NCBI RefSeq assembly: GCF_021545845.1
Contig: NZ_CP088924.1
Span: 62,001 to 126,000, forward strand
DNA from: Rhodanobacter thiooxydans
Lineage (GTDB): Bacteria > Pseudomonadota > Gammaproteobacteria > Xanthomonadales > Rhodanobacteraceae
DNA length: 64,000 nt
Reading direction: 5' to 3'
The notes beneath the pieces were generated by a model. That model did no database searches. It had not been told where the DNA came from and saw only the letters and a program-made list of their open reading frames with translations. Positions 35,266-54,240 of this stretch are shown here, in pieces (position 1 is the stretch's first letter; every line of letters starts with the position of its first letter). The translations under genes were made by a program, and so were the position numbers.

Positions 35266-35401
35266 TGCAATGCCTCCCGGCAGAACCCAAGAAACATGGT
35301 TGAAGGCGATCCCACCTCGCCAGCTCCAAGGCGTGATGGGCGAAAGGCTTGATTTTCAGTGATGGAACCTTCTACCCAACTCTCCGCAGAAGGAAACCTT
35401 G

Positions 35402-38395: not shown

Positions 38396-38456
38396 GAGGA
38401 TGAGTGCCCCCGGAGGGGTGTTTGGCTATCTATATGGTTTCTATGGATAAATAGAC

Positions 38457-38494
38457 CTTATCCCGGTTTTTCGTTCCATTGCTCCCCAAACCCC
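38457..38494 (-). repeat. Right terminal inverted repeat of inner transposon (38 bp)
   Basis: Reads GGGGTTTGGGGAGCAATGG from the outside on the minus strand; two mismatches against the left copy. The 61 bases between the tnpA stop and this repeat hold no gene. Confidence 0.92.
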
Positions 38495-38626
38495 GATACC
38501 GCGAGTTGGCAGCTGGCCCGGCTCGCAAAGTCGGCTTCCGACGGCGCCAAAAAGGCGGCCAAAACATTGCGCAACGACGCGATGGCGCAAAGCCTCCCAG
38601 CGCCGAGAAGTGGAACCTGTTGGTGA
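38495..38626 (+). pseudogene. ORF remnant abutting inner transposon end
   Basis: Directly outside the inner right repeat, an open frame of 43 codons with no start reads DTASWQLARLAKSASDGAKK followed by AAKTLRNDAMAQSLP, a Lys/Ala-rich helical composition that looks like real coding sequence cut by the insertion. The original gene is not recognised; it does not match TnpS or TnpT. The following 126 bases up to the GtrA gene hold only a short GC palindrome (CGCTGCAGCG). Confidence 0.35.
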
Positions 38627-38752
38627 GTGGGATATCTGGGATGGTGCGTCGCTATTTTTCATCGAAATTTTATCAATACTGTCAAAAGTGGGGCTGTCGC
38701 TGCAGCGGCCCTTGCTTAGCCTCCGCTTAAAATCACAAGAGGCTTCTTGAAT

Positions 38753-39169
38753 TTAGTTTTCGTGAAACACCAGCTTTGACTGTACGACATAGGAAATCAA
38801 AGCGCCTGTGACTCCCGCGATGAGGAATATCAGGCCCCCCGACAGTCCCATTTTTGTTCCCAATGCGGTGAGCCCCGAGACGACTGCCGCATTGCCCAGC
38901 TGGAGCACCGCATAGCGCGGAAGCGCCTGTCTCTTTGGCGTATCACTTTGGAACGTGAGCCGGCGCTGCATCCAGAATGTCGGCGGGATCGGCAGTAAAG
39001 TTCCAAAGATCGCCGAAACGACCTCGCCGACGCGAAACCCATAATGCAAAACCATCGAAATGCAAAAATAGAGTAGGAATCCCGTACCACCTGCTAGAAG
39101 AAAGAAGAAGGTTCGGCGGACGCCATCATTCAAGGTGATCGATCGGAGGAACATGCTTGAATAGCTCAT
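38753..39169 (-). CDS. GtrA-family membrane protein (lipid-linked sugar flippase)
   Basis: A 138-residue protein with four predicted membrane helices and the GtrA pattern (RRTFFFLLAGGTGFLLYFCIS; PTFWMQRRLTFQS; YVVQSKLVFHEN in parts). GtrA proteins are thought to flip undecaprenyl-phosphate-linked sugars across the inner membrane. Last gene of a nine-gene minus-strand series; partners with matching function (GT2 and GT39 transferases) are at the far end of the same series. Confidence 0.82.
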   Translation of the reverse strand: MSYSSMFLRSITLNDGVRRTFFFLLAGGTGFLLYFCISMVLHYGFRVGEVVSAIFGTLLPIPPTFWMQRRLTFQSDTPKRQALPRYAVLQLGNAAVVSGLTALGTKMGLSGGLIFLIAGVTGALISYVVQSKLVFHEN

Positions 39170-39243
39170 TGAATGTTGACGCGGAGAGGGAGCACTTGCT
39201 TTTCGCTGGCGATAGCCGATTGAATAAGCACGCTATCCATCCT

Positions 39244-40425
39244 TCAGATAGTTGCCGCACGCTGTGTCGGCAAGATCACCCACAACAGTACCCCGCTCAC
39301 GATGGCCAGGACGCCGAACACCCCGAACGCGATGCCTGCGGTGGACTGCTGCCAAATGACGCCGAACATCAACCCGGCAGGGATGGCTCCTAACCCCGAA
39401 ATCATCGTGAACCATCCGAAGGCGGTGCCGCGGTCCGCTTCCGTCGCCAATGTGCTGACCAGCGTTTTTTCCGCGCCTTCGCCGATGCCGCTGAGCAAGG
39501 CATAGACGACCACGACGATCCACAGGCCCAGGATATTTTCCACGAACGCGAACAGCAGCAAGCCCACGCCGTAGGCCAACCAGGTGGAGGCCACGACCGT
39601 GACTTTGTTGAAACGGTCGGAAACCTTCCCGGCACGCCAGGCGACCCCGGCTTGCACGGCGCACAACACGGCCCAAAGCAGGAGCACCTGGACGTTACCC
39701 ATACCGATTTCGTGAGCACGTAACAGAATGAAACTCTCCGACGCACTGGCGAAGGCAAAAAGCAGGAAGACGGTCAGGAAGCGCCGCGACGGAACAGTCA
39801 ACGCACGCCAACGCAAAGGCGCTGGCGTCGTTCCGGGCTTGATCGTTTTCGCCGGCACATCCTTGACGAGAGTCATCAAAACCACCAGCGCGAGGGCCGC
39901 GGGAATGGCCGACAGCATGATGACCACGCTGATGCGATGGCTGATCCACAGCAATGCCGCTGCAGCGATCAGGCTGCCGCCGACCGCACCGGCGTAATCC
40001 AGGGCGCGATTGATGCCGTACGCATGCCCTCGCAATGCCGCCGGCGTGGCATCGGCCACCAACGCATCGCGGGGGGCACCACGCACCCCCTTGCCGACGC
40101 GGTCGAGACTGCGCAGCAACATCACGACCGGCCAGTTGAGCGCGAGTCCCACGAGCGGTCGCGCGATGCTCGACAGACCATAGCCCATGACGACGAAGAT
40201 CTTGCGCCGGCGCCCACGCACATCCGAGCGACGACCGGCCCAAAGACGAACTCCGCTGGCGACCGCGTCCGCCACGCCGTCGACCAGGCCCATCGCCACC
40301 GGACCCGCACCCAACGTCGTGACCAGCAACAGCGGAATCAGCGGCGCAACGATCTGCGATGACAGTTCGTTGAGGAAGCTCACGAAGCCGAGCACGATGA
40401 TGGTCTTGGAAACGGTTGACCTCAT
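39244..40425 (-). CDS. MFS transporter
   Basis: A 393-residue major facilitator with 11-12 membrane helices and the loop 2-3 motif in the form GRRSDVRGRRRK. It resembles drug/metabolite proton antiporters; the substrate is unknown. Preceded by an 84-base gap with a small hairpin after the histidine kinase gene, followed by GtrA after 74 bases, so it may be read from the same transcript or from its own promoter. Confidence 0.85.
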   Translation of the reverse strand: MRSTVSKTIIVLGFVSFLNELSSQIVAPLIPLLLVTTLGAGPVAMGLVDGVADAVASGVRLWAGRRSDVRGRRRKIFVVMGYGLSSIARPLVGLALNWPVVMLLRSLDRVGKGVRGAPRDALVADATPAALRGHAYGINRALDYAGAVGGSLIAAAALLWISHRISVVIMLSAIPAALALVVLMTLVKDVPAKTIKPGTTPAPLRWRALTVPSRRFLTVFLLFAFASASESFILLRAHEIGMGNVQVLLLWAVLCAVQAGVAWRAGKVSDRFNKVTVVASTWLAYGVGLLLFAFVENILGLWIVVVVYALLSGIGEGAEKTLVSTLATEADRGTAFGWFTMISGLGAIPAGLMFGVIWQQSTAGIAFGVFGVLAIVSGVLLWVILPTQRAATI

Positions 40426-40439
40426 CGGTCGTCTTCAGC

Positions 40440-40455
40440 GAACCGGATGCGGTTC
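40440..40455. promoter_or_regulatory. Small hairpin between histidine kinase and MFS genes
   Basis: GAACCG (40440-40445) and CGGTTC (40450-40455) around GATG, in the only sizeable gap of the middle part of the operon. Possible weak attenuator or operator; no T-run. Confidence 0.3.
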
Positions 40456-40509
40456 CGTACGTCCCCATCTTCCGGGTTAGAAGCAGTCCGTGGCTTATCG
40501 GGTCGGCCG

Positions 40510-41760
40510 TCATGCATGGTTGGAGTCCGCAAGGGTGAGCGTTAGCGGCTCACCGGACTGCTGTGGCCATCGCACCGTCCATCCCAACCGTTCGCAAAGA
40601 CGACTGATCAAGCTCAACCCAAAGCCATTGTCGGACCGCCGTTGGTCAATCCTCGCGTTCGTCATCTCACCAACCTGCGGCCATGGGCTCAGCTCGATGC
40701 CCGTGGATGCGATGACTATGGACACCACGGCCCCGTCCGAGAGCTCGCCCGCTCGGCGTAGCAATTGCCCAAACACCAACGTCACAGCACGTTGGGGCGC
40801 CAACACGGTGATGCTTGCATCGCCGTGCAGTTGCACGGGTGTCGATGGAGGCATCGTCTGTGCGTCGACGAGGCGCTGCCATGTGGCACGCACAGGAATG
40901 GGTTCGGCAACGATCGCCACCTCCGTCTCGTGACGGGCCAGGTAAAGCAGCGTATCGAGCAGATCCGTCAATTCGGCGGTACGTCGACGCACGCGCTGGA
41001 TGGCGCGCTGACCGGAAGGACCTACCGTGGCGTCTTCTGCGAGCAGATCGACGCTGGCCTGGATCACCGACAGCGGTGAACGCAATTCATGGCTGGTGTC
41101 GGCGGTAAACTCCCGTTCGCGCGTCAGGAACGCATCCAGGCGTGCCTGGTAGTGCTCGAAGGCGACCGCCAGCGCACCGACCTCGTCATTGGCGAAGTGG
41201 GTGCGAAGGCGATCGTCGCGGCGGGGCGGCGCCGATGCTTCGACCCATTGCGCCAGTCGCTGAACCGGTGCAATCAACCGCCCGGCCAAGAGCAGGCCCA
41301 GCGCGCCGGAGACCAGCGTACCTATGAGGATGACACCGGCCATCAACCAACGCAGAAACGTTTCGCGCTGGGCGATGTCGCTCAGATCGATGACGAAGTA
41401 CAACCGCTGGGTGCCGTCGTCGGAGACGGCGACATACGTCTCCCGATCCCCTTCGCGATCCAGTATGTGTGTCCCCGGTGGCAGGGCGGCCATTTCCGCG
41501 GGCACATCATGGCGGTCGCTCGCCCGACTCACATACGCATAGATCCGCTGGGAGGCTGGCAGGGGTGTACTTGGTTGAGTGTGGAGGTGCGCGATGAGGT
41601 TGCTGGTTTCGACCTGCAGCAACTCCGTCATCAGGATGCGTTCGAAGTCGGCCATGGAGGTCAACGCCACAGCGGCGAACAAGCTCGACAGCACCACCCC
41701 GAAGGCGAGGAACGCCAAGACAATCCGGGTGCGGAGCGTGAATCTAAGGCGCATCGTCAT
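40510..41760 (-). CDS. Two-component sensor histidine kinase (degenerate ATPase domain)
   Basis: A 416-residue sensor: membrane helix near 12-32, periplasmic loop of about 100 residues, second helix near 138-160, HAMP-like linker, and HisKA phospho-acceptor His224 in FTADTSHELRSPLSVIQ. The ATPase domain is unusual: where the N-box should have Asn the sequence is QLLRRAGELSDG, and no clear DxGxG box is seen; only the NGFGLSL glycine segment remains. I start at the ATG that overlaps the response-regulator stop. Probably pairs with the regulator at 41744 to control this block, but kinase activity is uncertain. Confidence 0.85.
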   Translation of the reverse strand: MTMRLRFTLRTRIVLAFLAFGVVLSSLFAAVALTSMADFERILMTELLQVETSNLIAHLHTQPSTPLPASQRIYAYVSRASDRHDVPAEMAALPPGTHILDREGDRETYVAVSDDGTQRLYFVIDLSDIAQRETFLRWLMAGVILIGTLVSGALGLLLAGRLIAPVQRLAQWVEASAPPRRDDRLRTHFANDEVGALAVAFEHYQARLDAFLTREREFTADTSHELRSPLSVIQASVDLLAEDATVGPSGQRAIQRVRRRTAELTDLLDTLLYLARHETEVAIVAEPIPVRATWQRLVDAQTMPPSTPVQLHGDASITVLAPQRAVTLVFGQLLRRAGELSDGAVVSIVIASTGIELSPWPQVGEMTNARIDQRRSDNGFGLSLISRLCERLGWTVRWPQQSGEPLTLTLADSNHA

Positions 41761-42424
41761 CCGCCAAACGGTAGCCGATCCCGTGCACGCTATGCAGCAG
41801 CGGCTTGTCGAACGGCTTGTCGATGGCCTGGCGCAGGGCATGCAGGTGTGTGCGCATGGCATTGGCGTCGCCCACTGCCTCGCCCCATAGTGCCCGGGCC
41901 AGGTCGGCGTGGCTGACCACGAGCGGCGAACGACGCATCAAAACCTCCAGCAAGCGCAGGCCTGCACGGGATACCGAGACGGAAACACCTTGGCGCCTGA
42001 CCCGAAAACGGGCGGCATCGTATTCGAGATCGGCGACCCGCAAGGGCGCGCCAAGGGGGGGCTGCACGCGCCGATGCAGAGCATGCAGCCGCGCCACCAG
42101 TTCCTTCATGGCGAACGGTTTGACCAGATAATCGTCCGCACCCTCGGCGAAACCGCGCAGCTTGTCGTCCAGCGTCTCGCGAGCGGTCAGCATCAACACC
42201 GGCACATCGTGCTGGGCGGCGCGAAGCTGGCGGCAGACCTCCAGACCATCCAGCCGCGGTAGCCCCAGATCCAGCACGATCAGATCGTGCGTGCCCGTCA
42301 ACGCCAAGCGCAGCCCGGTCATACCGTCGAAAGCATGATCCACCGCGAAGCCATGCAGCTCCAGGTAATCCCACAGAGTGGTTGCCAAGTCACGGTTATC
42401 TTCGACAAGCAGCACACGCAACAT
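41744..42424 (-). CDS. OmpR/PhoB-family response regulator
   Basis: A 226-residue regulator: receiver domain with acidic pocket Glu8-Asp9 (VEDN), phospho-acceptor Asp52 (IVLDLGLPRLDG) and Lys near 102 (YLVKPF), then a winged-helix DNA-binding domain (SHADLARALWGEAVGDANAMRTHLHALRQ in parts). It begins five bases after the RND pump gene and overlaps the kinase by about 17 bases. It is the only transcription regulator found among the transposon cargo. Confidence 0.92.
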   Translation of the reverse strand: MLRVLLVEDNRDLATTLWDYLELHGFAVDHAFDGMTGLRLALTGTHDLIVLDLGLPRLDGLEVCRQLRAAQHDVPVLMLTARETLDDKLRGFAEGADDYLVKPFAMKELVARLHALHRRVQPPLGAPLRVADLEYDAARFRVRRQGVSVSVSRAGLRLLEVLMRRSPLVVSHADLARALWGEAVGDANAMRTHLHALRQAIDKPFDKPLLHSVHGIGYRLADDDAP

Positions 42425-42429
42425 GGCCG

Positions 42430-45400
42430 CTAAGCCTCCGCGGGGTGGGTGTCGCCCGGCGTATCGCGCTGGAAACGACCGTAACGCAGGGCCAGCGTGG
42501 GCAGCACCAGCAGATTGAGCGCGGTGCTGGTGACCAATCCGCCGAGAATGACCAGCGCCATCGGCCCCTCGATCTCGCGACCCGGAGCGCCACTGCCGAT
42601 CGCCAGCGGCAACAGCCCCAAGGCCGTGACCAGCGCGGTCATCAAGATGGGCGACAGGCGTTCTTGCGCACCGCGCAGGGCAGCCTCCGGTCCCCATGTC
42701 ATGCCTTCGACATTGACCAGATGATCGTAGTGCGACAAGAGCATGATCGAGTTGCGCAGGGTAATGCCAAACAAGGTGACGAAACCCACCATCGAGCCGA
42801 TGGAAAGGCCGCCGCCGGTGGCGAACACCGCCAGTACCCCACCGACCAGCGCGAACGGCAGATTGACCAGCACCAGCAACAAACTGCGCGTGCTGCCGAG
42901 CACCATGAACAACAACAAGATGATGGCAACACCGGCGATCAGCGAATTGATCAGCAGATCATGCGTGGACTGGCTCTGCGCCGCAGCCGCACCGCCAAAC
43001 TCCACGTAGCTGCCGGGCGGCAGCGCGACCTTGGCGGCAATCTGCTGTTGGGCGGCGGCGACAAAAGCCGAGACGTTGCCCCCGCTCACGTTGGCGGTCA
43101 CGGTCTGCACGCGCCGGGCACCATCATGCAAGACGACGTAGCGCCCCGCATCCTCATAGACGTCGGCCAGTTCTTTCAGTGGGACATACGTGCCGGCGGC
43201 GTTGCGAATCGGCAAGGCACCCACTTCGGCCACCTTGCCACGTTGTTGGGGCGCGAGGATGACCGAGACATTGAACACGCGGTTCCCGTCGTAGACCTGG
43301 CCGACCTGATCGCCTTGGTAGGCGGTGCGGATGGCGTCGAGCACCGTCACCGCATCGAATCCCCAATGCGCCAGCGCTTGCTTGCGCAAGCGTACGACCA
43401 ACTGCGGCGTACCCGGCGGTGACTGCACTTGGACATCCGCCGCGCCGGGCAGCTGCGCCAGAATCTTCGCGACGTCCGCCGCCTTGGCGTCGAGCGTGTC
43501 CAGATCGTTGCCGTAGATATTGACCGCCACGGCGGCGGTAAAGCCCGACAGGGTTTCTTCGACACGCTCGGTCAGGAAGGTCTTGACCGCGAAGTTGACG
43601 CCGGGAAATGGTGCCAGCGCCTTGCGAATATCCGAGACAGCCGCTTCTGCCGCATCACCGCTGAGAGGTTTGAGATCGACGTTGAACTCGCTGTATTGCG
43701 TGCCCCACGTGTCGTCGGCCTTTTCGGCACGCCCGGCATTTTGCGACACCGAACGGACGAAGGGCAGCTTCAGCAGTGCGGCGGTCACATGGTTGCCGAT
43801 GCGTATCGACTCCTGCAGCGAGGTCCCCGGCACCGCCGACATGTGCACGATGAAATGGCCTTCGCGCAATTCCGGCAGAAAGCTGCCTCCGAAGAACGGC
43901 AGCGCCGCCACCGCCATCAACGTCACCACTACGACCACCGTCATGACCACGCGATAGCTGGTCTCCACACGCAACAGCATGCCGCGATAACGATCCTTGG
44001 TCCAACGCACCAACGGCGCTTCGCTTTCCGGCAAGGGGCGGTTGGCCAGCAGCAAGTAGCACAAGGCGGGGGTGACCGTCATGGCGACCAGGAGCGAGGC
44101 CAGCGTCGCCAATACATAGGCAATGCCCAAGGGCGCGAACAGGCGCCCTGCGATGCCTGACATGGTCAGCACGGGAATGAACACCAACGCGATCGCCAGC
44201 GTCGCGTAGACCACCGCGCTGCGCACTTCCAGCGAAGCGTCCAGCAGCACCGTGAAGACGGCGCGGGGTACCTCGGCATGCCGATTCTCGCGCAGCCGGC
44301 GGTAGATGTTCTCCACCACGATCACCGCATCGTCCACCAGCAAACCGATGGCGATGGCCAGGCCGCCCAAGGTCATGGTGTTGAGGCTGAAGCCGAAATA
44401 TTCCAATACCGTCACGGCGGCGAGCAACGACAACGGGATCGCCACCAGCGAGATCGCGGCCGTACGCAGGTTGTACAGGAACAGCATCAGCACGATCACG
44501 ACGAGCACGCCGCCGATCATCAGCGAAGATTTGATGTTGCCTGTCGCCGTCGTGATGAAGTTGGCGGGACGAAATAGATCGGCATGCAAGGTGATGCCCT
44601 GCGCGGTCAGGCCCGGCTTCATACTGGCCAGCGCTTTTTCGACGCTCTGAGTGACCTCAAGTGTATTGGCACCGTACTGCTCGGAAATCACCAACTGGAC
44701 GGCCGGATGGCCCATGATCGAGGACGCCCCGATGGGCGGCTCCGGGGCAACGACCACCTGCGCGACGTCACCCAAGGTGACATTTCCACCCGCCTGATGC
44801 CGCACGATGGTACCGGCGATTTCCTGCACGGTGAGCGCTTGCCCGGCGCTCTGCAGGACGATGCGCTGATTGGATGTGTCGATGAACCCGGCACCACGCA
44901 CACCCGTGGCCCGACGCGCCGCCGTCAGGACGTCGTCGACCGCGAGATTGTATTTGAGCAATTGCTCCGGGTGGATCTGGACCTGGTATTCCTTGGTATC
45001 GCCCCCGAACACCGCAACCTTTGCGACGCCCGGTACCGCCAGCAACGCCGGTTTCAGCGTCCAGTCGGAGAGCGTGCGCAGCTCCATCAGCGATCGCTTG
45101 TCGGAAGTCAGGCCGATATCCAGCACCACACTGGTGGAGGAGGTCAGCGGCGACATCACCGGCACCTGCACGCCTTGCGGCAACTGGGTGGCAAGCGCAC
45201 CGAGACGCTCCCCGAGATTCTGCCGATCCCGATAGATGTCGCTGCCCGGATTGAAGGTGATGGTGATCACCGACAAGCCCTGGATCGATTGCGATCGCAG
45301 CGCCTGCAGCCCCGGCAGGCCGTTGATCGCGTTCTCGATCGGTTGGGTCGCCAACACCTCCACCTGTTCGGGCGCCAACCCTGGCGCTTCGGTCTGAATC

Positions 45401-45564
45401 GACACCTGCGGCGGGGCGAATTCCGGAAACACGTCGTATTTGCTACGCGACAGTGTGAGCGTGCCATAGACAATCAGGATGCCCGCCAGCACCAGCACCA
45501 CACCACGAAACCGCAACGAGAAGCGGACGATCGCCGCCAGCAGCCCCGGCGCGTCCTGCCTCAT
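42430..45564 (-). CDS. RND efflux pump, HME-like with AcrB-style Asp pair
   Basis: A 1044-residue RND antiporter related to CzcA/CusA (PPQVSIQTEAPGLAPEQVEV; NPGSDIYRDRQNLGERL). Two features set it apart from the other two pumps. The fourth helix reads LLVDDAVIVVENIYRR with adjacent Asp411-Asp412, as in drug-type RND pumps. The CusA Met-triad positions are His (FIVHMSAVPG), a Ser/Glu stretch (QYSEFNVD) and Glu (RVEETLSG). The substrate cannot be assigned; Cu(I)/Ag(I) by the CusA route is unlikely. It overlaps the adaptor gene by ATGA. Confidence 0.9.
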   Translation of the reverse strand: MRQDAPGLLAAIVRFSLRFRGVVLVLAGILIVYGTLTLSRSKYDVFPEFAPPQVSIQTEAPGLAPEQVEVLATQPIENAINGLPGLQALRSQSIQGLSVITITFNPGSDIYRDRQNLGERLGALATQLPQGVQVPVMSPLTSSTSVVLDIGLTSDKRSLMELRTLSDWTLKPALLAVPGVAKVAVFGGDTKEYQVQIHPEQLLKYNLAVDDVLTAARRATGVRGAGFIDTSNQRIVLQSAGQALTVQEIAGTIVRHQAGGNVTLGDVAQVVVAPEPPIGASSIMGHPAVQLVISEQYGANTLEVTQSVEKALASMKPGLTAQGITLHADLFRPANFITTATGNIKSSLMIGGVLVVIVLMLFLYNLRTAAISLVAIPLSLLAAVTVLEYFGFSLNTMTLGGLAIAIGLLVDDAVIVVENIYRRLRENRHAEVPRAVFTVLLDASLEVRSAVVYATLAIALVFIPVLTMSGIAGRLFAPLGIAYVLATLASLLVAMTVTPALCYLLLANRPLPESEAPLVRWTKDRYRGMLLRVETSYRVVMTVVVVVTLMAVAALPFFGGSFLPELREGHFIVHMSAVPGTSLQESIRIGNHVTAALLKLPFVRSVSQNAGRAEKADDTWGTQYSEFNVDLKPLSGDAAEAAVSDIRKALAPFPGVNFAVKTFLTERVEETLSGFTAAVAVNIYGNDLDTLDAKAADVAKILAQLPGAADVQVQSPPGTPQLVVRLRKQALAHWGFDAVTVLDAIRTAYQGDQVGQVYDGNRVFNVSVILAPQQRGKVAEVGALPIRNAAGTYVPLKELADVYEDAGRYVVLHDGARRVQTVTANVSGGNVSAFVAAAQQQIAAKVALPPGSYVEFGGAAAAQSQSTHDLLINSLIAGVAIILLLFMVLGSTRSLLLVLVNLPFALVGGVLAVFATGGGLSIGSMVGFVTLFGITLRNSIMLLSHYDHLVNVEGMTWGPEAALRGAQERLSPILMTALVTALGLLPLAIGSGAPGREIEGPMALVILGGLVTSTALNLLVLPTLALRYGRFQRDTPGDTHPAEA

Positions 45565-46613
45565 TGCTTGTCTCCGTCTTCACCTACGGCAATGCGTGAC
45601 CGCTGCTCTTCCGAGAGCAACAATTGCGCGCCCGTTGCCACAATCGGTTCGCCCCGAGCAAACCCCTGGGCCACGAACCAGCCGCCGTCCACCGGGTTGT
45701 CGACCGGTAACGCATGGCGCACGAAACGGTCAGGCTGGTTGCGGCTATAAATCCACGATCGACCCTGCCACCACACAACCGCCGAGCCGGGAATCATCGT
45801 GCCTTGTAACGACGTGCCCGAGGGCAGATACGCGGTGACCGCCATGCCCGGCAAGAGACCTTCGGCCGACACGGCATAGAAGAAACTGGCCCCCTGCAGA
45901 CGGGGATCGGTGCGTGGCGCGGGCGAGATCAAGGTGGCGGCGTGAAAGTCACCATTGACGCTCTGCACGCGCGCTTGGGCAGGGGGCTGGGCGAGTGCGG
46001 TGGTCGCCGGCAACACCACCTGGACCAGGACTTGCTGGCGAGTGACCAGACGCGTGAACAGCGGCATATTCGCATCCGCCGCCTTGGCCAAGACGTCGCC
46101 CCATTGCTGGCTTGCGGTCTGCTGCGCGGCGGTCAGCGCGGCTTGCGCCGCCCGCCAAGCGGCTTGGTCGGCATGCCATACCGCGGCGGCCGCCTGCAAG
46201 ACCTTGTCGGAAATATTGCGTTCGTCGCGATGCAACGATTGCAGTCGCTGGTATTCGGCGTGGGAAGCCTGCAGCGCCGCCTCGGCCTTGTCCACCTGGG
46301 TTTGGGCGGCGACGTTGGCGTTGCGCAACGCGATCAGATCCGCTACATCCAGCACCGTTCCGAACGTTTGCAGCATCGGACGATGGGCCATGGCCTGTTG
46401 CGCGACCACGACGATCCCGCTCTGCTTCTGATCCGCCGTATCCAGCGTGACCGCCGTTTGATCCTGCACCTGCGACACGCGCGACGGCGCCTTCACCGGA
46501 GCCTCGCGCTGGGCCTCCGTGGCGCGCTCCTTCTGGCCAGCCAGGAATCCCCAGACCGCCAGAGCCAGCACGATGGCGCCCAGGATGGCCGCGAGAATGG
46601 ATTTCTTGTTCAT
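45561..46613 (-). CDS. Periplasmic adaptor of third RND pump
   Basis: A 350-residue membrane-fusion protein with an N-terminal anchor (SILAAILGAIVLALAVWGFLAG), a coiled-coil hairpin rich in Ala and Gln (about residues 100-165) and beta-barrel segments (LLPGMAVTAYLPSGTSLQG; IPGSAVVWWQGRSWIY). It lacks the heavy-metal-binding module of CusB. Four-base overlaps with both neighbours show a coupled tripartite set. Confidence 0.85.
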   Translation of the reverse strand: MNKKSILAAILGAIVLALAVWGFLAGQKERATEAQREAPVKAPSRVSQVQDQTAVTLDTADQKQSGIVVVAQQAMAHRPMLQTFGTVLDVADLIALRNANVAAQTQVDKAEAALQASHAEYQRLQSLHRDERNISDKVLQAAAAVWHADQAAWRAAQAALTAAQQTASQQWGDVLAKAADANMPLFTRLVTRQQVLVQVVLPATTALAQPPAQARVQSVNGDFHAATLISPAPRTDPRLQGASFFYAVSAEGLLPGMAVTAYLPSGTSLQGTMIPGSAVVWWQGRSWIYSRNQPDRFVRHALPVDNPVDGGWFVAQGFARGEPIVATGAQLLLSEEQRSRIAVGEDGDKQ

Positions 46614-48025
46614 GGCTGGGAATCCTGCATGCGGGGCGCGTTTTCAAGGGTGTGAATGTCGGTCGCAAGTGCACCCAAGGGGTGCCGCATGGCATCTTCG
46701 AGCGCGCCCAGCGATTGCTGGGCCTGCAGGAGGGTATCGAGACGGGCCAGTTCGGCCGCGGCCAATTCCACCTGGGCGCCGATCAGACTCAACCGATCCG
46801 TTTCGCCCGCCTGATACAGCGCCTCGGCTGAGCGCGCCGCTTTGCGTTGGGCCGCCAGCAAGGTATCGGCGGTACCAAGTTTGCCGACAACCTGGCGATA
46901 GCCGGCCAGCGCTTGGTCGACTTCGCCGATCGCCTGCGCTTGCACGGCAAGAAAATTGGCGGCCGCCTGCTGGCGATGCGCCTGGGCTTCGGCGATCGGC
47001 CCCTGATTGTGGTTGAACAACGGCAGCACCAGCGATAGCCCCAACGACCACTTGGCCTGTGCGGCATCCCACAGAAAACCCGGACCGAGCGTGATGTCGG
47101 GATATTGCTTGGCCACTTCGCCTTGCAACGCGGCCTGACTGGCTTCGTAGTCGGCCAGCGCAGCGCGGACATCGGGGCGATCCCGCAGCGCTTGACGTTG
47201 CACGTCATGCGACGGCAACGCGCTCAGGGGTGGCATATGCTCGAACGTCGTCATCGACAGCGTGACGCCATGGAGCGCACTCACCGGCAGACCCAACGCC
47301 GACGCCAACTGCACCCGGTTTTCAGCAAGACGCTTCTGCGCTTCCTGCAGATTCAAGCTGAGCTGGTTGAGCGTGATGTGCGCCTGGATGAGCTCCGGCT
47401 GCGACGCTTCCCCCGTTGCAGTCCGCCGTTCGATCAACCTGACCAGCTCCGCTTGTCGCTCCTGTTGTCGACGCAGCAAGGGCACGGTGGGATACACGCC
47501 AAGCAAGCTGCTGCGCACGCGACGGCGGACTTGCCACGCGGTCTCCGCGATATTCAAGCGTGCCGCTTCGGCCAGTTGCTGCGCCTGTCGAATCCGGTCG
47601 CCGCGTTTGCCTGCCGTCTCGATCGGTACATTGATTGTTGGGCCCACCGTCCAGGGCGACACGCCAGCAGGGGCATCGACGTTGTATTGATTGGTGAAAT
47701 CCAACGTCGGATTCGGACGGGCGCCGGCCGTGATCACTGCTGCCTCGGCGGCGCGCCATTTGGCGCGTGCCACATCGAGATCCGGCTGATAGTACAGAGC
47801 CACCCAAGTGAGGGAGCGCAGATCCCACGAGGATGGCCCCGTGGTCGGGTGGTACGCGGAGTCGTTTCGCTGCAGAAACGCCTGCAGACTCGGATCGTGC
47901 AACGAGCGGTGCTCGAACGCAGTGACGGTGGCGGCCGGTTCAATCGGCCGTGGCCGATAGCTTGCGCAGGCTGTCAAACCGAGTGCCAGGCCGACGACCA
48001 CGATGCGTGTAACGTGCTTGTTCAT
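46610..48025 (-). CDS. Outer-membrane lipoprotein channel of third RND pump
   Basis: A 471-residue TolC/NodT-type channel. The ATG at 48025 starts a lipoprotein signal (MNKHVTRIVVVGLALGLTACAS) with lipobox LTAC at Cys20; the frame is open upstream but that part is not signal-like. Two OEP repeats follow (ALYYQPDLDVARAKWRAAEAA; ALADYEASQAALQGEVAKQ) and a PLFNHNQGPIAEA segment typical of the family. It overlaps the adaptor gene by ATGA and follows the GT39 gene after about 100 bases. Confidence 0.87.
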   Translation of the reverse strand: MNKHVTRIVVVGLALGLTACASYRPRPIEPAATVTAFEHRSLHDPSLQAFLQRNDSAYHPTTGPSSWDLRSLTWVALYYQPDLDVARAKWRAAEAAVITAGARPNPTLDFTNQYNVDAPAGVSPWTVGPTINVPIETAGKRGDRIRQAQQLAEAARLNIAETAWQVRRRVRSSLLGVYPTVPLLRRQQERQAELVRLIERRTATGEASQPELIQAHITLNQLSLNLQEAQKRLAENRVQLASALGLPVSALHGVTLSMTTFEHMPPLSALPSHDVQRQALRDRPDVRAALADYEASQAALQGEVAKQYPDITLGPGFLWDAAQAKWSLGLSLVLPLFNHNQGPIAEAQAHRQQAAANFLAVQAQAIGEVDQALAGYRQVVGKLGTADTLLAAQRKAARSAEALYQAGETDRLSLIGAQVELAAAELARLDTLLQAQQSLGALEDAMRHPLGALATDIHTLENAPRMQDSQP

Positions 48026-48124
48026 GAATCTTCCGCGCAGGAGATCAATCGGTTCTTCACGGGAACGTGCCTGGTGCGACATACGCCTTCGGGCAACTGC
48101 CATCACGCATCATCGGTGTCCCCC

Positions 48125-49840
48125 TCATGGCATCGCCCGTGGGGGTGGTGCCGTTTCGTGTCGGCTGATAATGACACCGGTCGCTTCGCGGCCCAGCTCA
48201 CGAAACGGCAGCCCCTCGCTCCGCAGTTGTCCCACCAGGTTGTCCGCGACCAGGGCGATCGCATCATTGCTGGAGCGCCAGCGCTGTTCGAACGTGGCGA
48301 GGTCGGCGATGTAGCCGTCCGGCCGCGACGCCAAGCCGGGCGTCAGATCATCGGAATTTTGGTCGACCACGGTGATGGGGCGCCCAAGGTAAAACGGCAA
48401 CCCTCGTAAATACGCATTCACCGTGAATACCTCGGTGTGCGGCCCGAGCTCGGGCTGGATGAGACGAGCGACGGGTGCGGCGGAGCGCATGTCGACGAAG
48501 GGCTGCGATGCCACCAGCGAAAGCTGCCATCCGATCAGGGTGGCCAAGGCAAGCCCATGAATGGCGGTGCGGCGACGGTCACGATGCAAGGCCCACGTAC
48601 CCACCATCGCGGCGACCGCCATCAGCAACAAGGCCAACGACACCCCGCTCAACACGTCCTCCAATACCTGTTTCGGAATCGCCGTGCGTGCAGCGAGCAT
48701 GACCACGATGGCTATCGCAGCGCTGAGGGTCGCCAGAGTGGCGATCAACCAAAAACGGCGCGCCAGGGCCTGCAGCGGCAGAACCGTGGCCGCGCGTCCC
48801 AGCAACAGCGCCAAGGCAGGAAACACCGGCAGAATGTAGAACGGTAGCTGGGAATGCGAGGCCGAAAAGAACACGAAGACCACGCTCACCCAGACCAACA
48901 GGAAGCGTTGTGCGGGTTGGCTGGCACCGATAGCACGCCACCCGGTCCTGTTCCATGGCAACAGCAACGTCCAGGGAAACATGCCGAGGATCACGACGGG
49001 GAGAAAGAACCCAAAGACCTTGGAGCGACCGTCGGCCGAGGTCAAGAACCGCGTGAAATGCTCCCGGATGAAGAAATAGTCGAAGAAATCCGGATGCAGG
49101 CGGCATATCAAAATGAACCACGGCGCGCACAGCACCAGCAGCACCAGTACACCGGGCACGAGGGACACGCGCCGCAGTACCCCCCAGTCACGCTGCCACA
49201 GCATGAAGATGCCCAGGATCATGCCGGGAAACACCACGCCGATCAGTCCTTTGGAAAGCACCGCCAGGGCCAGCGCTGCCCACATCAGCAGGTTCAGTCG
49301 TGTGCGCAGATGCCGCGCGGTCGGATCGAACTGCGCCACCAGAAAACACGCCATGCCCACCGCGAGAAACGCCGTGACCCCCATATCCAGCGTGTTGATA
49401 TGCGCGGCGAAAGCGAACAGTAACGAACTTCCGAGTATGGCGGCCGCGTAACCGCCTGCTTCACGACCGAATAGCCGCGCACCGGCCCAGCCGATCGCCA
49501 CGATCGCCAGCAATCCGGTGAGCGCGCACCACAGGCGTGCGCTCCACGGATGCGCCCCGAAGAGCGCATAGGCGGTCGCGCTGGCCCAGTAATGCAAGGG
49601 CGGCTTATCGAAGAAGTTGAAACCATCCAGGCGGGGCGTGATCCAGTCGCCGCGGGTCAACATCTCGTAGGCGACTTCTGCATACCGCCCTTCATCCGGT
49701 TCGCCAAGCGAGCGGCCTGCCAGTCCGTAAAACCAGGCCGCGAGCCACCCGATCCCCAGCAACAAGGCGGCCCCGCTGAATCGCGCGTACCAGGCACCCG
49801 CGGTGCGAGCGTCATTTTGAACCGTGTGCTTGACGCTCAT
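48125..49840 (-). CDS. ArnT-like glycosyltransferase (GT39/PMT family)
   Basis: A 571-residue integral-membrane transferase with about 12 helices that moves a sugar from an undecaprenyl-phosphate carrier to an acceptor on the periplasmic side, such as lipid A, O-antigen or protein. Family motifs: DEGRYAEVAYEM (Asp-Glu of the first periplasmic loop), GDWITPRLDGFNFFDKPPLHYW and the FFIREHFTRF segment. The ATG has AAGGATCC upstream and overlaps the GT2 stop. Acceptor and sugar are unknown. Confidence 0.88.
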   Translation of the reverse strand: MSVKHTVQNDARTAGAWYARFSGAALLLGIGWLAAWFYGLAGRSLGEPDEGRYAEVAYEMLTRGDWITPRLDGFNFFDKPPLHYWASATAYALFGAHPWSARLWCALTGLLAIVAIGWAGARLFGREAGGYAAAILGSSLLFAFAAHINTLDMGVTAFLAVGMACFLVAQFDPTARHLRTRLNLLMWAALALAVLSKGLIGVVFPGMILGIFMLWQRDWGVLRRVSLVPGVLVLLVLCAPWFILICRLHPDFFDYFFIREHFTRFLTSADGRSKVFGFFLPVVILGMFPWTLLLPWNRTGWRAIGASQPAQRFLLVWVSVVFVFFSASHSQLPFYILPVFPALALLLGRAATVLPLQALARRFWLIATLATLSAAIAIVVMLAARTAIPKQVLEDVLSGVSLALLLMAVAAMVGTWALHRDRRRTAIHGLALATLIGWQLSLVASQPFVDMRSAAPVARLIQPELGPHTEVFTVNAYLRGLPFYLGRPITVVDQNSDDLTPGLASRPDGYIADLATFEQRWRSSNDAIALVADNLVGQLRSEGLPFRELGREATGVIISRHETAPPPRAMP

Positions 49841-50856
49841 CGAGGATCCTTGATGGGGAGCGATGCGGCGACCACCGATGGCGGTGTGTCGGTGCCGCGT
49901 GGCGAGGGCATCGCCAGCACCTGACACGCCGCCTCGATCAGATAGATCGGCCGCTGTTTGACTTCCGCGTATACACGGCCGAGATATTCGCCGAGCACGC
50001 CCAATGCCAGCAGTTGCAGACCGCCCAGCACCAGAACCACCACCATCAGTGAGGGATAACCCTTGACCGGATCACCCCACAGCACCGCCTTGATAAAGAC
50101 CCCTGCGCCATAGCTGAAGGCGCACACCGACGTCGCAACACCCACGGCCGTGGCCAGTCGCAGCGGCAGAATGGAAAACGACGTGATGCCTTCCACCGCC
50201 AGATTGAACAGCCGCCAGTAGTTCCATTTGGTGCGACCTGCTTGGCGAGGGCTGCGCTGGTACATCACCGCCGTATGGGGATAGCCGATCCAGCCGAACA
50301 GGCCCTTCATGAAACGTTGGCGCTCACGCAACTGGCGCAGCGCGGCCACCGCACGCGCCGACATCAGGCGGAAATCACCAGTATCGTGCGGCACGTTGAA
50401 CGCCGCCATGCGCGCCATCAAACGGTAGAAGAGATGTGCCGTCGCTCGCTTGAACCAGCTCTCGCCTTCACGGTGTTCGCGAGTGGCGTAAACCACGTCG
50501 TAGCCAGCGCGCCAGCGCGCCAGCAGTTCAGGAATAAGTTCGGGCGGATCTTGCAGATCGGCATCAATGATGACGATGGCATCGGCCTCATCCGTCACGG
50601 CGTCGAGACCCGCGGTCAGTGCGGCTTCCTTGCCGAAGTTGCGGCTCAAGCGCAGCGCGCCGATGCGCGGGTCTTGGCCCATCAGCCGGTTGAGTACGAG
50701 CCATGTGCCATCGCGACTTCCGTCATCGACATAGATCACCCGCGCATCGAGCGCCATCCCATCGAGCACGCCGACAAGACGCGCATGAAACAGGGGGAGC
50801 ACTTCCGCTTCGTTGTACGCGGGCACCACAACGGTGAGACGGACGGATGGGGCCAC
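49837..50856 (-). CDS. GT2 polyprenyl-phosphate sugar transferase (GtrB/ArnC/DPM1-like)
   Basis: A 339-residue transferase that probably loads a sugar from an NDP-sugar onto undecaprenyl phosphate. GT-A domain (LTVVVPAYNEAEVLPLF; VDDGSRDGT; IDADLQDPPEL; RQAGRTKWNYWRLFNLAVEG in parts) followed by two C-terminal membrane helices (about 230-260 and 270-295). The start is GTG. First gene of the nine-gene minus-strand series; with ArnT-like GT39 next and GtrA at the end it completes a lipid-linked sugar pathway. Confidence 0.9.
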   Translation of the reverse strand: MAPSVRLTVVVPAYNEAEVLPLFHARLVGVLDGMALDARVIYVDDGSRDGTWLVLNRLMGQDPRIGALRLSRNFGKEAALTAGLDAVTDEADAIVIIDADLQDPPELIPELLARWRAGYDVVYATREHREGESWFKRATAHLFYRLMARMAAFNVPHDTGDFRLMSARAVAALRQLRERQRFMKGLFGWIGYPHTAVMYQRSPRQAGRTKWNYWRLFNLAVEGITSFSILPLRLATAVGVATSVCAFSYGAGVFIKAVLWGDPVKGYPSLMVVVLVLGGLQLLALGVLGEYLGRVYAEVKQRPIYLIEAACQVLAMPSPRGTDTPPSVVAASLPIKDPR

Positions 50857-51134
50857 GAATATCCCTGCGCGCTATGACATCGTCGGCACAGTAATGAGCA
50901 ACCCGCGCGTCCCCACTCAACGACTTCTCAATTATTCGTTAAGCGTGCTCTGGACAATTGAATCTGAAACGACCGGCCAGCGGGTCGTGTGGACGACGAC
51001 GATTGACTGATCGCCTGGCACATTCACACCGGGTATCGTCACCACCTCGTTCTTGACTCTATGCTGGCACTGACGAAGCAGCGATAACGAAGCTCCTGGT
51101 CGCTGCAAAAGAACAAACTCTCCGGGCAATTTGA
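50857..51134. other. Divergent intergenic region between GT2 operon and outer tnpA
   Basis: 278 bases without a convincing gene. It must hold the promoters for the long minus-strand operon and for tnpA in the other direction. AT-rich stretches occur near 50930-50975, but I see no clear -35/-10 pair, no response-regulator direct repeat that I would defend, and no resolution-site-like palindrome comparable to that at 11094. Confidence 0.4.
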
Positions 51135-54100
51135 ATGACGTCGGCCTCTGATTCTCACCGTCTGAACATCCTCACTTCTGAAGAGGTTGAAGACCTGTAT
51201 GGACTGCCCAAATTTACCGACGACGACCGGAACCTTTACTTCGACCTAAGCCCAGCGGAAAAGGCCGCTGTCGACGCACGCACTCCTGCCGTCGGCCTGT
51301 ATTTGGCATTGGAGTTGGGCTACTTCAAGGCCAAGCGACAGTTCTTCACCTTCGAGCAGGGCGCCGTGGCCAATGACCTGTGCTACCTGCTCGGGCAGTA
51401 TTTTCCGGGCCAGACCGTCGAATCGATCAAGGCGCCATCCAGGCCCACGCGCGGTGCCATCCAGCAAACCGTTCTCGACCTATTTGGGTACCGCGTGTGC
51501 GACAACGTCGCCAAGACGGAGCTGGAGCAAAAAGCCCAGCGAATCGCAACACTGTCGACCCAACCGCTGTACATCCGGCGTGAGTCACTGCAGCACCTGA
51601 GCAACGAACGGATCGTGGCGCTGCAGTACACGACGATGCAGGACATGGTGGGACGGGTGGTGACGCACGAACGCCATCGCGTCACCCGCCTACTCGAACA
51701 GGCGATGACCCCAGCGGTCGAGCGAAGTCTCGACGACTTGCTGCGGGCCGACGAACAGATGTATCGGATCAGTGCGCTCAAGCGTGAACCGAAGGACTTC
51801 AGCTACAAGGAGCTCAAGCGCGAAGTCGAACGGCGAAAATTCTTCCAGCCGCTGCACGAGTTCGCCCAGAGCTTTCTCGTCGCGGCCGGCTTGTCCAACG
51901 AGAGCGGCAAGTACTATGCGTCGCTGGTCAAGTTCTACACGGTCTACAAACTGCAGCGCATGCCCAAGGGCACGACGCGCCTGTACCTGCTCTGTTTCGC
52001 TTTCCATCGCTTCCGACAGATCAACGACAACCTCATCGAGGCGTTCATTCATCTGGTCGACCAGTATGAAAAGCAGTCCAAACACGCCGCCGAGGCGGCG
52101 ATGCAGCAGACGCTGGTGGACGCCAGCGAACACTTGCAGGCGGCGGGCGAGGTGCTTCGCCTGTTCATCGACAAGTCCATCGCCGTCGACAGCCCGTTCG
52201 CCACCGTCCAGAAGAAAGCCTTTGAACTGCTGAAGCCGGAGCGCTTTGCGGCAGTGGCCGACTACCTGCGCAATGTCGCTTTCGACAAGACTGCCTTCCA
52301 GTGGTCCTACTACACCACAACGCTGTCGCACCGATTCAAGCGCAACCTTCGGCACATGTTCTGCGAACTGGACTTCGCCGGCCGGGTGGAGGATGCGCCG
52401 CTACTGGATGCGGTCACGTTCCTGCAGGAGCTGTTGCGCGCGGGCAAGTCGCCGCGACAGACCCAACCGTCACTATTTCCCACGGCGATGATTCCGAAGA
52501 GCCTGCAGCGCCACCTCTTTGCCGAGACTGACGAGGCAGGCGATGCGAAGGATCAGGGCAAGCGGTTGGAAGTCGATCGTTATGAGTTCCTCGTCTATCG
52601 GCTGTTACGGAACGCGCTGGAAGCCGGAGACCTGTTCGTCAAGGACAGCAACGAATTTCGTCGCTTCGAAGATGACCTGATTAGCGACATGCGCTGGGAG
52701 CAGCGCGAAACAGTCCTACAGGAGATTGGTGTACCGCTCCTGATGGCCCCCATCGAGGACACGTTGAGCACGTTCCGTGAGGCGCTGGAAACCCGGTTTG
52801 CGCAAGTGAACCAGCGTATTATCGACTCCGCCAACAAACACATCAAAGTCACCGGCCGTGCCGAGAAACGACGGTGGAAGCTGATCTACCCGACGCCTGA
52901 AGAACCCGTCAGCGGCTCGTTCTATAGCCAGTTACCCGGCACCGGCATAGCCGACCTGTTGAGATTCGTTGCGGGAGCGACGGGCTTCCTGGGGGCCTTT
53001 ACCCATGTGCTCGATCGCTATGTCAAGCATGCCCCCGATGCCCGCGAAATCCTGGCTTGCGTGGTCGCGCTTGGTACCAACATGGGCTTGTGGAAGATGG
53101 CGGAAGTTTCGGGCCTGAGCTTTTCGTCATTACAGGGCACCGCACGCAACTATCTGCGGCTGGAAACCCTACGGGCCGCCAACGATGCCATCACGAATGC
53201 CATTGCGACCTTGCCGGCGTTCCATCTGTACGACATCCGCGACGAGATGCATTCCAGCAGTGACGGGCAGCGCATCGAAACTCAGATCGATACCATCAAT
53301 GCCCGATACTCGCCGAAGTATTTCGGGTTGCAGAAAGGCGTGAGCGCGTACACGCTGGTGGCCAACCACGTACCGATCAACGCCCGTATCATCGGCACGC
53401 ACGAGCACGAGAGTCACTACGTTTTCGACCTGCTGTACAACAACACGTCCGATATCAAGCCGGAACGACATTCGACCGATACGCACGGTACCAACCAAGT
53501 CAATTTCTGGATCTTGCGCACCTTCGGATATGGCTTCGCGCCGCGGTACCGCGATCTGCACAAGAAGATGCAAACTCTGGTCGCCTTCGAGCATCCCAGT
53601 CATTACGCCGACATGTTTATCAAGCCGGCACGCAAGGTCTACGACGAACTCATCGTGAAGGAGTGGCCCAACATCCAGCGCATCATGGCCTCACTGGCGC
53701 AGAAGGATGTGACTCAGGCCACCATCGTCCGCAAGTTGAGCAGCTACGCCCGCCAGAACCAGACCAAGAAGGCCCTGTGGGAACTCGACAACATCTGCCG
53801 CACGCTGTACATCCTCGACTTCATCGACGACGTGGATTTGCGGCAAAGCGTGCAAAAAGCGCTGAACCGAGGGGAGGCGTATCACCGGTTCCGCAAAGCG
53901 GTCGCCTACGTCAACGGCGGCAAGTTCCGAGTTCACACCGAAGCCGAACAGCAAATCTGGAACGAGTGCTCGCGCCTGATTGCCAATGCGATCATCTTCT
54001 ACAACACGGCACTACTGTCTAAGGTATATGCACAGAAGGTGGCCGCTGGCGACCAGGAGGCTATCGCCATCTTACGAGGAATCTCCCCGGTAGCTTGGCA

Positions 54101-54239
54101 ACATATCAACTTGTTTGGCACGTTCGAATTCAACGAAACTACCACCAAGGTCGACATTGATGCGCTTGCCGCCAGATACGCCGATCCAGACTACTGGAGC
54201 AAGGCCTTGAAGGAGATGCAAGAAGTGCCTCTCGGCTGA
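51135..54239 (+). CDS. tnpA: Tn3-family transposase TnpA of outer transposon
   Basis: A 1034-residue DDE transposase of a divergent Tn3 subgroup. N-terminal region NILTSEEVEDLYGLPKF and YFDLSPAEKAAVDAR; catalytic Asp in SSDGQRIETQ, Asp in STDTHGTNQVNF, Glu in the NRGEAYHRFRKAV segment, and the downstream NECSRLIANAIIFYNTALL segment. The stop codon is one base from the right terminal repeat, showing that this transposase belongs to the outer element. The long N-terminal region and unusual repeat ends separate it from the inner TnpA. Confidence 0.95.
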   Translation: MTSASDSHRLNILTSEEVEDLYGLPKFTDDDRNLYFDLSPAEKAAVDARTPAVGLYLALELGYFKAKRQFFTFEQGAVANDLCYLLGQYFPGQTVESIKAPSRPTRGAIQQTVLDLFGYRVCDNVAKTELEQKAQRIATLSTQPLYIRRESLQHLSNERIVALQYTTMQDMVGRVVTHERHRVTRLLEQAMTPAVERSLDDLLRADEQMYRISALKREPKDFSYKELKREVERRKFFQPLHEFAQSFLVAAGLSNESGKYYASLVKFYTVYKLQRMPKGTTRLYLLCFAFHRFRQINDNLIEAFIHLVDQYEKQSKHAAEAAMQQTLVDASEHLQAAGEVLRLFIDKSIAVDSPFATVQKKAFELLKPERFAAVADYLRNVAFDKTAFQWSYYTTTLSHRFKRNLRHMFCELDFAGRVEDAPLLDAVTFLQELLRAGKSPRQTQPSLFPTAMIPKSLQRHLFAETDEAGDAKDQGKRLEVDRYEFLVYRLLRNALEAGDLFVKDSNEFRRFEDDLISDMRWEQRETVLQEIGVPLLMAPIEDTLSTFREALETRFAQVNQRIIDSANKHIKVTGRAEKRRWKLIYPTPEEPVSGSFYSQLPGTGIADLLRFVAGATGFLGAFTHVLDRYVKHAPDAREILACVVALGTNMGLWKMAEVSGLSFSSLQGTARNYLRLETLRAANDAITNAIATLPAFHLYDIRDEMHSSSDGQRIETQIDTINARYSPKYFGLQKGVSAYTLVANHVPINARIIGTHEHESHYVFDLLYNNTSDIKPERHSTDTHGTNQVNFWILRTFGYGFAPRYRDLHKKMQTLVAFEHPSHYADMFIKPARKVYDELIVKEWPNIQRIMASLAQKDVTQATIVRKLSSYARQNQTKKALWELDNICRTLYILDFIDDVDLRQSVQKALNRGEAYHRFRKAVAYVNGGKFRVHTEAEQQIWNECSRLIANAIIFYNTALLSKVYAQKVAAGDQEAIAILRGISPVAWQHINLFGTFEFNETTTKVDIDALAARYADPDYWSKALKEMQEVPLG

Positions 54240-54240
54240 T

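Follow-up and report, generated by a model that had tools for sequence, protein, structure and literature searches.

A Tn3-family transposon of Rhodanobacter carries a TolC-adaptor-RND efflux block between the genes of a putative gtr-type glycosylation path

Nine open reading frames lie on the minus strand between positions 38753 and 50856 of the window, which is the whole stretch of 64,000 nucleotides analysed here (Rhodanobacter thiooxydans GCF_021545845.1, NZ_CP088924.1, 62,001 to 126,000, forward strand). In transcription order they encode GT2, GT39, TolC, adaptor, RND, response regulator (RR), histidine kinase (HK), MFS and GtrA proteins. These genes, a candidate site upstream and a gene remnant downstream are as follows:

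50916..50942, minus strand, candidate regulator-binding repeats 5' of GT2 (TTRAS-N6-TTRAS-N6-TTRAS)
49837..50856, minus strand, GT2, GtrB-like polyprenyl-phosphate sugar transferase, 339 aa (PF00535)
48125..49840, minus strand, GT39, ArnT-like GT-C transferase, 571 aa (Arnt_C PF18583, PMT_2)
46610..48025, minus strand, TolC-type outer-membrane channel, 471 aa (OEP PF02321; annotated start used)
45561..46613, minus strand, divergent periplasmic adaptor, 350 aa (TIGR01730 at 43 bits, below the cut-off of 94.9)
42430..45564, minus strand, RND permease, 1044 aa (PF00873; TIGR00914)
41744..42421, minus strand, OmpR-family response regulator, 225 aa (PF00072 and PF00486)
40510..41718, minus strand, sensor histidine kinase with HAMP domain and H-box, 402 aa (HisKA 49.4 bits)
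39244..40425, minus strand, MFS transporter, 393 aa (PF07690)
38753..39169, minus strand, GtrA-family presumed flippase, 138 aa (PF04138)
38495..38662, minus strand, 5' remnant of a GT9 gene (the match to locus L005 starts at 38495, inside GT9)

With RefSeq-annotated starts, GT2 and GT39, TolC and adaptor, and adaptor and RND overlap by 4 bp each. The gaps are 99 bp (GT39-TolC), 8 bp (RND-RR), 25 bp (RR-HK), 84 bp (HK-MFS) and 74 bp (MFS-GtrA). A first-pass annotation had described nine genes in this order on one strand, with gaps of about 100 bases at most and with a GT2/GtrA/GT39 path split by efflux and signalling genes; the open reading frames, family profiles and RefSeq annotation agree on the gene order, the widest gap is within the figure given, and the split is borne out by the family assignments. 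The plasmid NZ_CP088926.1 contains a 100% identical stretch, with the same nine genes in its RefSeq annotation. The unit exists in two versions, which are 90.4% identical in DNA.

All nine genes travel as cargo of a Tn3-family transposon of metal-site Rhodanobacter, called Tn-B here (window 8936-54272), in which a second transposon, Tn-A, is nested:

8936..8973, plus strand, Tn-B left terminal inverted repeat, 5-bp flank CACCA
8985-9977, KfrA_N-domain gene, used in the comparison with the tnpS/tnpT subgroup
9981..38494, no strand, Tn-A, nested 28.5-kb Tn3-family transposon with 36/38 inverted repeats
35399-38395, Tn-A transposase, Tn3 family
51135..54239, plus strand, Tn-B Tn3-family transposase (NF033527 764 bits, cut-off 500)
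54235..54272, minus strand, Tn-B right terminal inverted repeat, 33/38 identical to the left end, flank CACCA

In the window, the 5-bp target duplication of Tn-B reads CACCA. The same ends are found in NZ_CP088926.1, a Rhodanobacter denitrificans plasmid, at another site and with the duplication AACCA. The isolates are environmental strains from contaminated wells in Tennessee. Tn-A carries copA/copB, two CusA/CzcA-family RND operons, two cation-efflux genes, PAP2 and FTR1, and a 100% identical copy of it lies on contig C1, a chromosomal duplicate.

Two more glycosyltransferases, an intact GT9 and a second GT39, follow GtrA in the R. denitrificans plasmid copy. The nested Tn-A occupies their place in the window, thus the nine genes are a truncated set. 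A further copy, in R5, has an IS5-family gene at the expected GT9 position; together with the loss of GT9 and the second GT39 in the window, this points to possible decay of the sugar part, or to its being dispensable in part. Both the status of the genes as transposon cargo and the loss 3' of GtrA relative to the sibling plasmid lay out of reach of the first-pass annotation.

Tn-B shares a Tn3 transposase, inverted repeats and metal-efflux-type passengers with the tnpA-tnpS-tnpT elements that carry czc cargo (TnXocp1 and relatives), described in the portions available of PMC4619425 and PMC7157771. In the MT042 copy of Tn-B a tyrosine-recombinase gene is divergent from a DNA-binding gene, which may correspond to the tnpS/tnpT pair; the recombinase gene (L005, 7736-8899) is missing from Tn-B of the window. 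The ends of Tn-B start with GGCT, whereas TnXocp1-type ends start with GGGG, and its cargo includes glycosyltransferases, unlike the czc cargo of TnXocp1-type elements; by these gene comparisons it is a candidate member of the subgroup.

The best solved relative of GT2 is the GtrB protein sll0501 (342 bits, vs 160 bits for ArnC), and the sole convincing PDB relative of GT39 is the ArnT-like transferase 5ezm/5f15 (288 bits). GtrB-type, GtrA-type and GT-C proteins are all present in the unit, the same three component types as in three-component gtr glycosylation (GtrB, GtrA and a GT-C transferase, as modelled in the part of PMC11127046 available). From these family assignments the sugar path appears to resemble GtrB-GtrA-GT-C periplasmic glycosylation, not 4-amino-arabinose (Ara4N) addition. 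The unit differs from three-component gtr systems in that the path is split by the efflux and two-component block, and in that its GT-C protein is ArnT-like, not a serotype-specific Gtr. The Arnt_C domain of GT39 and its ArnT-like structural relative would also fit an Arn-type system that modifies lipid A with Ara4N and confers polymyxin resistance. This reading is very improbable, as GT2 is far closer to GtrB than to ArnC, and a single ArnD query matched nothing in the strain's own genome (its sole positive control being the query's own record) and nothing, at a threshold of E 1e-20, in the 121 genomes searched across the order. We have rejected the Ara4N pathway on these two grounds, which also weaken the resistance to cationic peptides of the polymyxin type proposed in the first-pass annotation.

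The efflux genes encode a pump of known kind with unusual parts. The adaptor has no Pfam match, and 116 homologues of it are among the matches listed. The RND permease lies just above the curated cut-off for the CusA/CzcA family (711.3 vs 701.45 bits for TIGR00914, a borderline score), whereas the two RND proteins of Tn-A reach 1280 and 1129 bits; its relatives include ZneA (438 bits), CusA (411 bits) and AcrB-type entries (about 250 bits). The residues aligned with what we take to be the methionine triad of CusA, using an assumed numbering offset, are H574, Y624 and E670, which is not the Cu/Ag-type pattern. Because the score is barely over the heavy-metal cut-off and these three residues stand at the triad, the substrate is not fixed by the sequence. 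The MFS transporter has weak matches only, to MdtH (32 bits) and NorA (26 bits); MFS proteins 35-37% identical to it are encoded directly behind an RND gene in three other loci (L046, L086, L092). The TolC-adaptor-RND order and the two-component pair are shared with CzcCBA/CusCBA-type pumps with CzcRS-type regulators, from which the unit stands apart as a subfamily of its own whose adaptor has diverged strongly.

The response regulator has both its receiver and its DNA-binding domain, and its best NCBIfam match is the heavy-metal CztR/SilR/CopR family (175 bits, below the cut-off of 279). The kinase reaches only 13.8 bits for HATPase_c (cut-off 26.4) and in both alleles is without the N-box Asn and the G1 DxGxG, its ATP-binding motifs being degenerate. 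No conclusion rests on a structure prediction for the kinase, which was made from a three-row alignment and has a mean pLDDT of 55.6. Upstream of GT2, a triple TTRAS repeat with an 11-bp period lies in a stretch conserved in both alleles, and it presumably resembles an OmpR-family site. The pattern is unique in the genome, which carries little weight since it was drawn from that very site. An unbiased repeat test of the region 5' of GT2 was not significant (759/3000 and 366/3000 shuffles were as good), and 1216 of 2556 tiles of the window match or beat the window allele. We therefore retain the repeat as a lead only, not as an OmpR-family operator. A promoter and terminator pattern scan of the unit gave no signal above chance and carries no weight either way.

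It is possible, if unlikely, that a promoter ahead of GT2 drives the whole unit as a single transcript under the unit's own two-component pair, efflux and surface glycosylation being induced together as one defence. The overlaps and short gaps, the retention of the order by both alleles and by a second genus, and the repeat in both alleles are consistent with this. The outcome of the unbiased test, the gaps of 74-99 bp that could house more promoters and the missing N-box Asn and G1 motif of the kinase argue against it.

Comparison of the two alleles indicates purifying selection on all nine genes (dN/dS 0.04-0.22). Their dS is uneven, running from 0.12 for MFS and 0.18 for GT2 up to 0.52 for RR, so the alleles may be mosaics. 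When the adaptor was used as the probe, the unit was found in four of 233 genomes of the family, the strain's own included, and the full order was read in the other three, in one of them across the ends of its contig. The joined order occurs in two plasmid records, on one MAG contig as far as the contig reaches, and also in another genus. The first-pass annotation had named conservation of the order as a check; two diverged versions and the second genus support it, but among the loci read the joined order was not met outside one lineage.

The two parts of the unit occur apart elsewhere. Among 69 adaptor loci an RND of at least 50% identity is present in 68 and TolC as well in 62. An MFS gene is just downstream in three, and a regulator lies just upstream of the pump in eight, whereas in the unit the regulator genes are downstream of RND. 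Sugar genes were matched only in L041 and L042, which are of Rhodanobacter type, apart from a weak partial GT2 in L085; many of these contigs are short, just 34/69 having 3 kb or more on each side. None of the 29 other neighbourhoods of ArnT-like GT39 genes in the family (19 of which extend 3 kb or more to each side) contains a TolC, adaptor, RND, MFS or GtrA match. GT2 is beside GT39 in 11 of them, and in nine a second GT39 adjoins the first on the same strand (eight within 300 bp, L159 at 334 bp).

The separate occurrence of the modules and the fact that, in the loci read, the joined form is limited to a single lineage would suit two unrelated passenger modules that share a transposon, are expressed apart and serve unrelated needs, as would the varied passengers noted for such transposons in the available part of PMC4619425. 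We give this explanation a real chance, though it is less likely than not. Against it, purifying selection acts on all the genes, and their order has outlasted about 10% DNA divergence; 4-bp overlaps occur at three junctions, none of which, however, links a sugar gene to an efflux gene.

A related arrangement is on Cupriavidus metallidurans pMOL30, a metal plasmid on which GT39-GtrA-GT2 genes have a metal P-type ATPase and czc genes as neighbours. From their names and order these are probably gtr1 (gtrM3, gtrM1, gtrA1, gtrB1), located near czc; the GT39 is ~36% identical to that of the unit. They adjoin RND genes, not being wrapped round them, and no TolC-adaptor-RND set lies between the glycosyl genes. 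In the text available of PMC11647585, gtr1 is listed as one of the regions in which a metal mix raised both sense and antisense signals, and that of PMC7019866 suggests that ArnT takes part in outer-membrane changes under metal stress in C. metallidurans. The first-pass annotation did not recognise the combination as a described system. In the literature covered this holds for the joined, mobile package, but a link between metals and gtr genes had already been suggested for C. metallidurans (PMC7019866, as far as available). The open-licence literature yielded no paper on an RND and glycosyltransferase combination from a Rhodanobacter plasmid, an earlier mention elsewhere being possible; a term search found neither 'RND' nor 'glycosyl' in the main texts of PMC8809349 and PMC11128244.

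We consider it probable that the passenger region of Tn-B is a gtr-type locus into which an efflux block was inserted, so that it combines pump and surface glycosylation functions. The older modules would be a glycosylation locus of GT2, GT39 and GtrA (the fuller copy also has GT9 and a second GT39) and a block of TolC-adaptor-RND pump, two-component pair and MFS exporter placed within it. This direction of assembly is suggested by gene adjacency, without a tree. The RND pump would most likely clear the periplasm of a toxic cation or cationic compound, and the MFS protein would move that substrate, or a related one, across the inner membrane. The GtrB-like GT2 would load undecaprenyl phosphate with a hexose, GtrA would turn the loaded lipid over the inner membrane, and GT39 would put the sugar on lipid A, the core or another surface glycan, which could alter the charge or permeability of the envelope. 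A stronger proposal, that the transposon moves a complete module in which RND efflux and a re-coating of the envelope by periplasmic glycosylation are under joint control of the two-component system, with selection keeping the pairing, is doubtful; under it the kinase, being without its ATP-binding motifs, may act as a phosphatase or a pure sensor.

Both halves of the unit belong to known types; what is new is their union in a mobile package. ArnT- and GtrA/GtrB-like genes are also found on other metal-resistance plasmids, where a role has been proposed, not demonstrated, in the literature covered. In the unit the sugar genes flank those of the pump, the whole is mobile, and its hosts are environmental isolates of contaminated wells, which makes a possible part of envelope glycosylation in metal or acid tolerance open to a simple genetic test. 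The unit also shows Tn3-family elements building and shuffling large efflux cargos.

The first-pass annotation had placed nine minus-strand genes at 38753-50856; ORF and family calls find all of them there in the order it gave (GT2, GT39, TolC channel, adaptor, RND, regulator (RR), kinase (HK), MFS and GtrA). Its maximum gap of about 100 bases agrees with a widest gap of 99 bp, between GT39 and TolC. RefSeq makes the same nine gene calls on the identical stretch of NZ_CP088926.1, a plasmid of Rhodanobacter denitrificans FW104-MT042 (MT042), with a kinase of 402 aa, a channel of 471 aa and a GT39 of 571 aa, each below the longest-ORF size. The window's contig is 218,064 bp long, in a 4.2 Mb genome of two contigs.

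The unit is cargo of a Tn3-family transposon, Tn-B (window 8936-54272), which contains a second, nested transposon, Tn-A:

9981-38494: Tn-A, Tn3-family, 28,514 bp, inverted ends 36/38
51135-54239: Tn-B transposase

Tn-B is flanked by CACCA in the window and by AACCA in MT042, where its ends lie at 6533 and 27773 of the plasmid locus (L005); it has therefore inserted at least twice separately. The right end in the family genome G149 has an AACCA flank too, on the opposite strand, and thus the G149 insertion is probably that of MT042. The diverged allele on a plasmid of FW104-R5 (R5) retains the Tn-B left end; a different Tn3 transposase adjoins its GT2, and no Tn-B-type right end was found in the stretch read. 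Both Tn-B (window 8985-9977) and Tn-A (10065-11090) start with a gene for a KfrA_N-domain DNA-binding protein. A divergent tyrosine recombinase gene comes next in Tn-A (11216-12379) and in the MT042 copy of Tn-B, and the two genes are a possible TnpT/TnpS pair. Tn3-family tnpA-tnpS-tnpT elements with czc cargo occur in Xanthomonas and its relatives, according to passages of PMC4619425. An RHS-repeat-like ORF (54282-55406) lies immediately beyond the Tn-B right end, an ORF at 58778-60163 has a weak IMS (Y-family polymerase) match, and the MT042 plasmid annotation has a CBASS phospholipase near Tn-B (L005 761-1711).

Tn-A carries copA, copB, two CusA/CzcA-family RND operons, two cation-efflux genes, PAP2 and FTR1. 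Each of the two contigs of the genome holds a copy, the second (C1, 2417302-2445815) being 100% identical; this reflects either recent transposition or an assembly duplication, and a direct duplication is absent from both sites. In the window Tn-A occupies the place of L005 7578-11995, which in MT042 contains a tyrosine recombinase, a small gene, a second GT39 (GT39b) and most of a GT9; in R5 an IS5-family gene is at the GT9 position. The unit stops at GtrA in the window because these genes are gone, with Tn-A in their place.

The pump was traced by its adaptor, which is its most specific marker. One peptide pattern, applied to 84,980 species genomes, gave 69 adaptor loci; 68 of these have an RND with 50% identity or more, and 62 have TolC as well. 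A regulator is just upstream in eight of the 69 and an MFS just downstream in three. Matches to the glycosyl genes occur in L041 and L042, with a weak and partial one in L085, among 69 loci of which only 34 have at least 3 kb on each side, and short contigs could conceal some. Outside the lineage, the nearest pump is that of L044 (adaptor 58%; RND 80%, over part of the stretch), whose contig of 3,350 bp shows no readable neighbouring genes. The nearest one whose regulator pair could be read, L051 from Rhodocyclaceae, has the order RR-HK-TolC-adaptor-RND and is 48% (RR), 30% (HK) and 74% (RND) identical to the unit.

GT39 is found at E 1e-40 in 33 of 233 family genomes. All 29 GT39 neighbourhoods outside the unit were examined, 19 of them with over 3 kb of sequence on each side, and matches to TolC, adaptor, RND, MFS and GtrA are absent from every one. 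GT2 is beside GT39 on the same strand in 11 of the 29. GT39b is present in ten and is the same-strand neighbour of GT39 in nine of those, at a spacing of 334 bp in L159 and within 300 bp in the rest. In MT042 the efflux block separates the two, with one on each side. The simplest history would be insertion of an efflux, two-component and MFS block into a glycan locus. The genome also has a chromosomal GT2 (C1, 1056487-1057401), 70% identical to that of the unit, which adjoins genes for a transglycosylase and a GGDEF/EAL protein; the 18 kb read there contain no GT39 or GtrA match.

The RND falls barely within the heavy-metal family by curated profile, and its nearest solved structures are ZneA and CusA. 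Alignment to CusA shows that the CusA triad is absent. The sequence includes GLLVDDAVIVVE, with an Asp-Asp pair of the kind seen in drug-type RNDs. The kinship and setting of the RND make a metal substrate likely. The kinase (40510-41718), which is under purifying selection, keeps the HELRSP H-box; neither the Asn of the N-box nor the DxGxG motif of G1 is present, and the HATPase_c match is 13.8 bits. The L051 kinase, the nearest of ten aligned from other loci, keeps the N-box and likewise lacks G1.

GT2 is GtrB-like (sll0501 342 bits versus ArnC 160 bits) and GT39 is ArnT-like by comparison with solved structures. With GtrA also present, the proposed glycosylation path would have its full set of genes; the relevant part of PMC11127046 describes periplasmic glycosylation from undecaprenyl phosphate as having three parts, which match the GT2, GT39 and GtrA types. 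A search for ArnD relatives was negative in the genome itself, with the query's own record as a weak control, and likewise in 121 genomes of the order. When both strands were scanned for patterns, they gave one promoter-like site versus 2.3 expected and 13 terminator-like sites versus 9.9 expected (sd 3.3). A repeat at 50916-50942 is common to both alleles and was not significant in an unbiased test. With scans near chance, a single transcript across the nine genes is therefore only possible.

Megablast of 38500-51200 against 72,556 records gave two matches, MT042 (100.0%) and FW104-R5 (90.4%), both from wells in Tennessee. The adaptor is present at 93-100% identity in four of 233 family genomes (the window's own, G149, G158 and G207, the last from another genus), and the remaining matches listed reach at most 41%. 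The full stretch is present in G149, G158 and G207, so the nine-gene order recurs in other genomes. The G149 copy lies within a 4,225,490-bp contig; in G207, on a contig of 59,143 bp, the copy runs off the end and continues at the beginning, as in a circle. G158 and L042 (FW104-R8) are probably one genome. L041, an FW021 MAG contig labelled Castellaniella, has an identical copy of the Rhodanobacter unit as far as the contig reaches; the label may be a binning error, and the copy represents either between-class transfer or a mis-binned contig. Proteins P0003, P0118 and P0243 are 69% identical to the adaptor, 88% to the RND and 71% to GT39, respectively; the longest contig given for each of the three is 17,229 bp, and this shared value suggests that a more distant copy is also joined.

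The searches of open-licence literature yielded no description of the interleaved efflux-glycan order, of a single transposon that carries it at two insertion sites, or of its conserved atypical kinase. The nearest precedent is C. metallidurans pMOL30, in which GT39-GtrA-GT2 adjoin a metal P-type ATPase and czc; from names and order we infer that these genes are the gtr1 region. Sense and antisense signals of gtr1 are up-regulated after a metal mix in the section of PMC11647585 that covers it, and PMC7019866 suggests that ArnT has a role when the outer membrane changes under metal stress.

Window and R5 alleles were compared by the Nei-Gojobori method. dN/dS is 0.143 for GtrA, 0.151 for GT39 and 0.144 for GT2; 0.219 for MFS, 0.044 for RND, 0.115 for adaptor and 0.171 for TolC; and 0.160 for HK and 0.055 for RR. 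dS ranges from 0.12 to 0.52 across genes, and parts may therefore have recombined between the alleles. All nine genes are retained at the protein level, and this holds for the sugar genes and the atypical kinase too.
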